From: Candidatus Hermodarchaeota archaeon
Lineage (GTDB): Archaea > Asgardarchaeota > Hermodarchaeia > Hermodarchaeales > Hermodarchaeaceae
Direction: 5' to 3'
Assembly: GCA_016840135.1 (NCBI GenBank)
Contig: JAEOSX010000018.1
Location: 1-32,953, forward strand
DNA: 32,953 nt
A program made the translations under genes and the position numbers. This document shows positions 6,828-20,156 of this stretch, piece by piece (position 1 is the first letter of the stretch; each line of letters starts with the position of its first letter). The notes under the pieces were generated by a model. The model was not told where the DNA came from. It ran no database searches and worked only from the letters and a program-made list of their open reading frames with translations.

Positions 6828-9020
6828 CTAAGCAAACGGTGTAGTGCTAGGGCGCGTTTGACGAGCGCGTTTACTCCAAGAAAGATAGGCTTTCTCCATC
6901 TCCGCGGTGATTGTTGGATGTACCTCCTTGATCGCCTTCATGAAGTGTCTTCGATACACGGTTTTTGCTGCCATATCTTCGTCAAGTGCAGCAAGGGCTG
7001 CTTCCCTGCAGCATGCCTCAATGTCGCTACCTGCGAACCTTTCGGAGGCTTGAACTAGTTCTTCGATTTTTACATCCTTTGCAAGCGGCATATCTTTCAT
7101 ATATATTTCAAAGATTTTTCGGCGTGCATCAGCGTCAGGCGCAGGGACAAGTATGTGTCGATCGAAACGACCTGGTCTGAGTAAAGCTGGGTCAAGAAGG
7201 TCAGGGCGATTAGTTGCAGCTAGTACGACAACATCCTTTAGAGATTGAATTCCATCAATCTCTGTTAGTATTTGACTGATAACCCGCTCCGTTACATGCG
7301 AGTCGCCCACGCCACTACCCCGAGCAGGTGCCAGAGCGTCAATTTCATCAAAGAATATAATCGCAGGGGCAGCATGCCTAGCGCGCCTGAATACTTCCCT
7401 TACAGCTTTCTCTGATTCACCTACCCATTTTGATAAAACCTCTGGACCTTTGATACTTATGAAATTCGCTTCGCTTTCAGTTGCAACTGCACGAGCGAGG
7501 AGTGTTTTTCCACATCCTGGAGGCCCGAATAGGAGGACACCTCGTGGTGGCTGTACACCGAGGCGGGTGAATGATTCAGGATATCGGAGTGGCCATTCAA
7601 CAGCTTGCTTAATCTTCTCTTTTATTTCCTCAAGTCCGCCAATATCGGCCCAGCGAACATTAGGCACTTCAAGAGTGACTTCTCGCATTGCTGTTGGCTG
7701 GATTTCTCTTAGAGCGTGTAGGAAATCTTCGTTTGTCACTCGGAGATCAGCGAGTACTTCTGGTGGAATTTCATCTTCTTCCAGATTGATTCGAGGCAGA
7801 TAACGGCGTAATGCAAGCATAGCTGCCTCGCGACAAAGGGCAGCAAGGTCGGCTCCAACATAACCATGTGTGATGCTAGCCATTGTTTCAAGATTCACCG
7901 ACTCCAATGGCATTCCCTGTGAATGAATGAGAAGTATTTTGTGTCTACCATCTCGATCAGGGATACGTATCTCAATCTCCCGGTCAAAGCGACCTGGACG
8001 ACGAAGTGCTGGATCAATAGCATTAGGTCGATTAGATGCTCCAATTACAATGACTTGTCCACGTTTCTGAAGACCGTCCATGACTGCGAGCAGTTGAGCA
8101 ACTACTCGTCGTTCAACTTCACCTAGAACCTCCTCACGTTTGGGAGCGATGGCATCTATTTCATCAATGAATATTATGCTGGGAGCATTCTTTTCAGCCT
8201 CTTCAAATAATTGGCGAAGCCGTTTCTCTGATTCACCATAAAACTTGCTCATTATTTCAGGACCATTGATGGAGATGAAATGCGCCTCCGACTCGTTTGC
8301 GACTGCTTGGGCAAGCAATGTCTTACCACAACCAGGCGGGCCGTGAAGAAGAACACCCTTTGGTGGAGTGATACCGAGACGGGCAAAGAGTTCAGGGTGT
8401 TTCAGAGGAAGCTCTACCATTTCTCGTATTCGTTGAATTTCGTCGCCAAGACCACCAATCTCTTCATATGTGATGTAAGGAATGCCTGCCTCCAATTCCT
8501 TTGGAGGCTCACTTAGAATTGTTAGCTGAGTATTCAGTACAACGAGACCAATACCAGTTGGGCGTAGGCGACGGACTATGAATCTTACTGGACGCCCCAA
8601 TATTGATACATGGACTGTGTCATCCTTGGTCACGGGACAATTCAAAAGTTTTTGTTTCACGAATTCATCGAAATCTTTAGCAGGGAACCTCATTTCTAGA
8701 GGGGCAAGGACTATGGCTGCTGCTGAACGTTCCTGAACTGGATAAGCCGATACGTGCTCTTCAAGGCTAGCTCCTGCATTTCGACGCATACGTCCATCCA
8801 TTCGAATGATGCGCTGACCCTCATCTTGAGGATAAGCAGGCCACACAATACCAGCGGTTACTTTCCTTCCCTTAACTCCAAGGATGTCGCCAGTTTGCAC
8901 TCCTAGGGATTCCATTGTAGATGTATCAATTCGGACAATGAATCTCCCTGCATCTCTCTCGTGAGCCTTCTTCACTCGAAGTGTTAGTGATTTTCCTTTG
9001 GGTTGAATTTCATCTTCCAA
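6828..9020 (-). CDS. CDC48/VCP-type AAA ATPase with two ATPase domains
   Basis: 730 aa. N-domain plus D1 ([34 protein letters not shown]) and D2 ([33 protein letters not shown]). Confidence 0.97.
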
Positions 9021-18919: not shown

Positions 18920-18951
18920 AATCCGTCTTCCCTGAAACGAGATGGTGAACC

Positions 18952-19086
18952 ATGCCAGTTAACCTGACCTCTGAAGGCTCAGCAGCGAAAAGAGCGTACG
19001 AAGAAGCCACCACCCTAGAAGAAAGGATCGAGAAACTCGAGAAATTCATCTCGCTTATACCGAAGCACAAATCGAATCGTATGTAA
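18952..19086 (+). pseudogene. N-terminal fragment of the DRG-type GTPase, separated from the main ORF by an insertion with a stop and frameshift
   Basis: ATG 18952 preceded by gatggtgaacc. Translates to MPVNLTSEGSAAKRAYEEATTLEERIEKLEKFISLIPKHKSNRM*. It aligns with the DRG N-terminal helix once 19075-19106 is removed. Confidence 0.6.
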
Positions 19087-19115
19087 ATCGAGTCGAGTGT
19101 AAATCGAGCGAGAAG

Positions 19116-20156
19116 ATGGTGGCTACCTACCGACACAGGTTGGTTGTTCTACGTAGCGAGTTGGAGGAACGCAGGGCTAGACGTAAGCTGAGGACTGGTG
19201 GTCCCACTTATTCTTTGCCTAAGGAGGGTGCGGGCCAGGTAGTGTTGGTGGGGCTTGCTAGTAGCGGTAAGAGTACGCTGCTGAATCGGCTCACTGGCGC
19301 CAAGGCAAAAGTAGGTAGTTACGGATTCATAACCCAGCTACCTGAGCCAGGAGTTTTGAAGTTTGGGGGTAGTGGCATCCAAGTTATTGAGATGCCAGCC
19401 CTATTTGAAGGAGCTGAGGAGAGTAGTATTGGTCGCCAAATTCTGGGTGGGATTCGCAATGCGGATCTCATTGTTCTTGTTGTCGATCTTTCCAAACCGC
19501 CTTTATCTCAGATGGAGTTCCTTATTGGGCTGCTAGAGAAGTCCAGGATTATACTGAACAAAAGTCCTCCACCGATTCGGTTTACGAAAACGGGTAGCGG
19601 TGGATTCCACATCATTGGTCAGACTCATTTCCAAGGCAATCCTGATCTTATTCATCAGTTACTACATATGCGGCGGGTTCATAATTGTTCTCTGCAGTTT
19701 AAGGGACCAGCAACTCTTGACGATCTTGTTGAGGTAATTGATAGTAGGACTCGCTATGCTCCTGCTATTGTGATTGGTACTAAGGGTGATGCGAGTGATA
19801 GCTCAGTTCATTTCGAGGAGCTTCGTAATCGATATGGTAGTGATTTTGAAGTTTTTGCGGTTTCAGTGGAGAAGGATAAAGGAATTGAGGCTGCTGCGGC
19901 GGGTATTTTTCGGGGACTGGGTGTGATTCGTGTTTATACTCGGAAGACGTCTGGTGAGGTTGCTGATAAGCCGATTATTTTACCTGAGGGCGCGCTTGTT
20001 GAGGAGCTTGCCTCTCGCCTTCATAGTGATTTTCTAGTTAGTTTTCGGTACGCCATTGTTTTTAGAGAAGGTGGGCGGATGAAGCGTAAGAAGGTAGGGC
20101 TCGCTTTTCGGTTGGAGGATCAGGACATCACCCAAATCTTTACCAGCGGTAAATAA
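19116..20156 (+). CDS. DRG/OBG-type GTPase with C-terminal TGS domain (divergent; N-terminal region displaced)
   Basis: Walker A GLASSGKSTLLNRLTGAKAKVGSYGF, G4-like GTKGD, C-terminal TGS-like VIRVYTRKTSGEVADKPIILPEGALVEELASRLHSDF...QDITQIF. Confidence 0.85.
   Translation: MVATYRHRLVVLRSELEERRARRKLRTGGPTYSLPKEGAGQVVLVGLASSGKSTLLNRLTGAKAKVGSYGFITQLPEPGVLKFGGSGIQVIEMPALFEGAEESSIGRQILGGIRNADLIVLVVDLSKPPLSQMEFLIGLLEKSRIILNKSPPPIRFTKTGSGGFHIIGQTHFQGNPDLIHQLLHMRRVHNCSLQFKGPATLDDLVEVIDSRTRYAPAIVIGTKGDASDSSVHFEELRNRYGSDFEVFAVSVEKDKGIEAAAAGIFRGLGVIRVYTRKTSGEVADKPIILPEGALVEELASRLHSDFLVSFRYAIVFREGGRMKRKKVGLAFRLEDQDITQIFTSGK

Follow-up and report, generated by a model that had tools for sequence, protein, structure and literature searches.

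The DNA analyzed here, called the window, is a stretch of 32,953 nucleotides from a MAG of Candidatus Hermodarchaeota (contig JAEOSX010000018.1, positions 1 to 32,953 of the forward strand; source genome G000). Its nearest named relatives are YT1_014 (G001) and H02S_Hermod_124 (G002), both Candidatus Hermodarchaeota within the Asgard archaea, and the whole window is syntenic with each of them at about 80% DNA identity. The window contains a gene (drg) for a DRG/Obg-type GTPase with the domains MMR_HSR1, MMR_HSR1_Xtn, and TGS, which is interrupted near its N-terminus. The frame opened by the ATG at 18952 encodes MPVNLTSEGSAAKRAYEEATTLEERIEKLEKFISLIPKHKSNRM and reaches a stop 44 codons on, while the main GTPase ORF lies in another frame and has its first ATG, GTG, or TTG at 19116. 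The insert contains the repeat units AAATCGAATCGTATGT, AAATCGAGTCGAGTGT, and AAATCGAGCGAG. The interruption, the two frames, the start at 19116, and the repeats are all as an earlier note on this sequence had described them. Removal of 32 nt yields a protein of 390 aa that aligns without gaps to uninterrupted homologues. The identical product results from any of eight cut registers in the window and from any of six in G002; 19075–19106, the segment proposed for deletion in the earlier note, is one of these eight, and the RNA structure selects 19071–19102 instead. The features of the locus are as follows.

18944–18948, forward strand: Shine-Dalgarno-like GGTGA upstream of the start codon, read in the sequence; G001 and G002 have GGTG there too.
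18952–19070, forward strand: exon 1 (119 nt) of the gene for the DRG-type GTPase, comprising codons 1–39 and two letters of codon 40; from homology to uninterrupted N-termini and dN/dS.
19050–19055, forward strand: exon-1 CUCGCU, complement of exon-2 AGCGAG (outer helix); present in the window and G002, not in intronless G001.
19065–19068, forward strand: 5′ arm of the central 4-bp helix H, GCAC (ACAC in G002); from the register analysis.
19069–19071, forward strand: bulge 1, AAA; predicted cut between 19070 and 19071.
19071–19102, forward strand: predicted BHB intron, 32 nt (31 nt in G002); from the G002 homologue, folding, and register analysis.
19072–19075, forward strand: 5′ arm of intron helix h′, UCGA, partner of 19093–19096.
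19093–19096, forward strand: 3′ arm of intron helix h′, UCGA.
19097–19100, forward strand: 3′ arm of central helix H, GUGU.
19101–19103, forward strand: bulge 2, AAA; predicted cut between 19102 and 19103.
19103–20156, forward strand: exon 2, the remainder of the GTPase gene, beginning with letter three of codon 40 and running to the stop; from the ORF, domain hits, and register analysis.
19107–19112, forward strand: exon-2 AGCGAG, pairing with 19050–19055.

The earlier note had suggested comparing the locus in sister genomes. We found that G002 carries a homologous insert of 31 nt in the same codon as the window (CACAAA TCGAATCGAGCGTAAATCGATCGAGTGTAAA TCAAGCGAG), while G001 and four further family members lack it and read ...LIPKHKSSEKMVA.YRHRL... 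in a single frame. More distant Asgard homologues also keep this N-terminal segment uninterrupted. Between the two interrupted species, both drg exons are under purifying selection: codons 1–41 show a dN of 0.057 and a dS of 1.09 (dN/dS about 0.05–0.08). Because the upstream segment is constrained in this way and the GGTG Shine-Dalgarno motif upstream of drg is common to the window, G001, and G002, the two parts behave as one gene. A DRG homologue in G010 that had been flagged with a stop merely shows its normal terminal stop. Searching the genome for TGTAAATCGAGTCGAG with up to 3 mismatches gave no indication of a dispersed or mobile repeat, the sequence being no commoner than its reversed control.

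Around the missing intron (window 19052–19151), G001 differs from both other species more than is usual: serine codons are swapped between TCN and AGN, and local identity to G001 falls to 0.63–0.76 in this block. This is suggestive of, but not conclusive for, tract replacement (gene conversion) in G001 upon intron loss.

According to our folding and register analysis, only one register forms a BHB-like structure, and it is the same in the window and G002: a helix H of 4 bp, a helix h′ of 4 bp, and two 3-nt AAA bulges. Helix H pairs exon-1 GCAC (window) or ACAC (G002) with intron GUGU, and h′ is formed by UCGA with UCGA. Cutting each bulge behind its second nucleotide would give HKSSEK in both species, CAC AA being joined to A TCG AGC. 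Shuffles of the insert interior reproduce this geometry at 1e-3 for the window and 1e-4 for G002; along the window, with lengths fixed, it occurs at about 3–5 per 10,000 sites. Folding yields −23.9 kcal/mol for the window and −18.8 for G002, compared to −2.1 for the same region of intronless G001, and window 19040–19140 scores z = −2.15 against dinucleotide shuffles. Exon-1 CUCGCU and exon-2 AGCGAG are complementary in both interrupted species, where G001 has other synonymous codons.

As in known BHB introns, the interruption is missing in orthologues, its precise removal restores the product, and two 3-nt bulges at the borders are set apart by a 4-bp helix. It departs from the strict hBHBh′ form, in that the outer helix h beside bulge 2 has only 1 bp in the strict register. 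In the window, pairing resumes at a greater distance, with an additional A in exon 1, and G002 shows only the CUCGCU/AGCGAG pairing. Since the outer helix is imperfect, we class the structure as a relaxed and not a strict BHB. Covariation at drg, with two species carrying the intron, consists of one G-U to A-U change in H alone. The TCGA repeats, which favor self-pairing by chance, count against the BHB reading.

The source genome encodes two EndA-family proteins (PF01974; L086:1222–1776, forward strand, and L087:1465–2127, minus strand) and one RtcB. Both EndA genes are present in seven of the eight family genomes, and the remaining one shows just the first. The catalytic EndA subunit is nearest to Aeropyrum pernix EndA (match over 175 residues) and has RKPK at the place of E-K44-P45-R46. 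In A. pernix, K44, P45, and R46 are part of a loop, specific to Crenarchaea, that has been linked to the recognition of a broad range of substrates (PMC12397907). The second subunit gives a weaker match and, judged from its sequence, appears to lack the catalytic His. Together this points to a crenarchaeal-type heterotetramer, the kind that cuts relaxed BHBs. ARAGORN in its permissive intron setting called several intron-containing tRNA genes in these genomes (L034, L035, L161, and L162), and EndA therefore probably has ordinary tRNA substrates as well.

To look for comparable interruptions, we scanned 1.79 Mb of stretches from eight genomes; the three genomes sampled best each offered about 220 comparable ORFs. 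This added a single case, in the gene for a MoxR ATPase of G001; the same intron turned up in G002 when the family was searched.

L231:1476–1501 (G001) and L236 (G002, reverse strand): BHB-like intron of 26 nt in a MoxR-like ATPase gene, Walker-A region (LLEG/VPGIAKT).

Taking AGGGCGUUUAAGGAACGCUCGGCAAA out of moxR restores LLEGVPGIAKT. Helix H is UGCU/GGCA and h′ has 8 bp; bulge 2 is 4 nt long, so the cut must fall after its third A (AAA before A). The intron is missing in G000 and in the sister-genus genomes with a complete match. It is identical at 25 of 26 positions between G001 and G002, with flanking exons only about 80% identical, which could reflect recent transfer or constraint. Several apparent split genes in syntenic stretches proved to be antisense ORFs or intergenic regions.

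We also searched cbf5, as it is the known archaeal mRNA-intron gene. It is uninterrupted in G000–G002. In four sister-genus species (G003–G006), it is interrupted at GIINLD^KPPGPTSHE by 40, 41, 42, and 42 nt, and removal of the insert restores GIINLD-KPPGPTSHE.

L172 (G005), L173 (G004), L174 (G006), and L175 (G003): BHB-like introns of 40–42 nt in cbf5.

A single register fits, with H formed by CUGG and CCAG or CCGG, an AUA and an AAA bulge each with its predicted cut after the second nucleotide, and an h′ of 5–6 bp; shuffles give this structure at 2e-4 to 8e-4. The pairs are formed in 97% of cells versus 27–63% in slid structures, and three pairs are changed on both sides. Across the four sequences, 23 of 500 shuffles reach this number of doubly changed pairs, which is weak to modest support for covariation.

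Inteins also occur in some genes of these genomes. In addition to the small intron, cbf5 of G003 (L211:10006–12480, minus strand) has an in-frame intein of about 1.6 kb with Intein_splicing and LAGLIDADG_3 hits, and the G006 cbf5 locus (L174, L177, and L215) likewise has an in-frame intein of about 1.6 kb in the same gene as its small intron. A Cdc48-type AAA ATPase of G006 (L229:210–3731, G006:C13) carries a 1317-bp in-frame intein (Intein_splicing and LAGLIDADG_3); its orthologue in the window (6828–9020) is without it.

Based on these results, the drg insert is very probably a very small BHB pre-mRNA intron removed by the tRNA-splicing endonuclease. In the proposed mechanism, the transcript would fold by pairing exon-1 GCAC with GUGU at the 3′ end of the intron and UCGA with UCGA inside it, leaving an AAA bulge at each exon–intron border. 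The heterotetrameric EndA would cleave both bulges after the second nucleotide to release 19071–19102, and RtcB would join the exons into CAC AAA UCG AGC (His-Lys-Ser-Ser), allowing synthesis of the 390-aa GTPase. We infer this cleavage and ligation of the drg transcript in the cell from the conserved insert, its unique BHB register in two species, the enzyme genes, and the like architecture in two other genes. Among the options listed in the earlier note was a tiny spliced element. The register, G002, and the enzyme genes support this option and narrow it to a BHB intron of the kind cut by the tRNA endonuclease.

At the drg locus, splicing has one serious rival only, programmed ribosomal bypassing, in which the ribosome would take off at AAA (codon 40), skip 31–32 nt, and land on the AAA before UCG or UCA. 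Bypassing of this kind is known from T4 gene 60, where the ribosome skips a short gap that stays untranslated, has matched codons at its ends, and holds a hairpin. At drg, the same AAA codons stand on both sides of the gap in both species, the take-off site is followed by a stop, and a hairpin lies in the gap; in the window, the direct AAATCG repeats would also permit bypassing from AAA to AAA. T4 gene 60 uses neither upstream-exon pairing nor BHB geometry. In drg, the pairing reaches both exons and involves exon-1 GCAC, a segment that would already be under the ribosome. Bypassing predicts neither this exon-1 pairing nor the BHB geometry, and the exact register would be a coincidence. In addition, the cbf5 intron ends carry no matched take-off and landing codons (GAT and AAG or AAA). 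We know of no archaeal bypass element and consider this explanation very unlikely. Bypassing or frameshifting between the matched AAA-UCG codons had been offered as one option in the earlier note; the AAA match is seen at drg and not at the cbf5 intron ends, and frameshifting fails on the opposite directions it would need in the two species.

A frameshift mutation followed by reinitiation at ATG 19116, with a dispensable N-terminus, is less probable still. This ATG, 13 nt past the predicted intron, is indeed the first start codon of its frame, but at this position G002 has AAATTCGTA and no ATG, its first in-frame start being a GTG deeper in the gene. The purifying selection on the 41 upstream codons also argues against reinitiation, and the good Shine-Dalgarno site belongs to 18952, not to 19116. 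These observations disfavor the reinitiation that the earlier note had raised.

The interruption itself is real and is no assembly error. The source MAG is fragmented (217 contigs, 81% complete) and the segment is repetitive, as an assembly or sequencing artefact would have it. Yet a homologous, non-identical insert is found in an independently named MAG (JABXGV010000173.1, G002), and of all indels in the three-way alignment spanning the window, none but the 32-bp gap relative to G001 is non-triplet and interrupts a recognized gene. The artefact considered in the earlier note is thus refuted unless an error is common to both assemblies, and we regard an artefact or a private strain mutation as highly improbable.

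Programmed ribosomal frameshifting in which the insert would be translated into additional residues can be dismissed almost entirely: although the exon-2 frame is open across the insert in both species, 32 and 31 nt differ modulo 3, so that the ribosome would need a −1 shift in the window but a +1 shift at the same place in G002, there is no slippery heptamer, and the added residues would disrupt a stretch in which none of the relatives has a gap. These opposite shifts and the lack of a downstream ATG in G002 mean that neither frameshifting nor reinitiation can account for both species. A group I or II intron or an intein was rejected, the insert being frame-changing and, at 31–32 nt, too small for such domains.

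BHB introns in mRNA are a known class. The crenarchaeal cbf5 pre-mRNA intron occurs in Desulfurococcales and Sulfolobales (Watanabe 2002; Yokobori 2009; PMC2738675). Its bulges are cut between the second and third residue, it sits in the codon of the catalytic Asp, and its structures are mostly unconventional BHBs tied to a hetero-oligomeric enzyme (PMC2738675). The drg insert resembles it in its BHB-like borders, the position of the predicted bulge cuts, the predicted heterotetrameric EndA, and a patchy presence with losses. Unlike it, the window's intron lies in another gene and in an Asgard lineage, the Hermodarchaeota introns measure 26–42 nt, and their cbf5 intron is placed at GIINLD^KPPGP and not in the catalytic Asp codon. 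With the BHB introns of archaeal tRNAs, relaxed non-canonical ones among them, the drg intron shares the RNA motif and, presumably, the enzymes, but it lies in an mRNA and its removal restores a reading frame. Introns in tRNA genes are reported to be abundant in the Asgard Atabeyarchaeia and Freyarchaeia (PMC11291895). The BHB of Haloferax HVO_1309 is likewise an mRNA substrate of the splicing endonuclease, located in a 5′ UTR (PMC7714728) and not, as in drg, in coding sequence. According to the same 2020 study, the crenarchaeal cbf5 mRNA intron was the only archaeal BHB intron reported besides those in tRNA and rRNA and its own 5′-UTR case (PMC7714728). Within the open literature that we searched, the crenarchaeal cbf5 intron was the one BHB intron in a coding sequence, and none came up for the Asgard archaea. 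The introns in the DRG-type GTPase and the MoxR ATPase and the independently placed cbf5 intron are therefore candidates for new members of this class.

Whether Hermodarchaeota routinely carry tiny BHB introns in protein genes, perhaps many per genome and gained or lost between close species, is to us an even question; it would amount to recurrent non-spliceosomal mRNA splicing by a tRNA endonuclease of broad specificity. Gene callers will miss such introns and report truncated proteins or misplaced starts, and more may be hidden. The drg, moxR, and cbf5 cases found here all fall in an Asgard lineage, the archaea closest to eukaryotes, and the precise presence and absence between close species makes mRNA intron gain and loss by the tRNA-splicing pathway directly testable.
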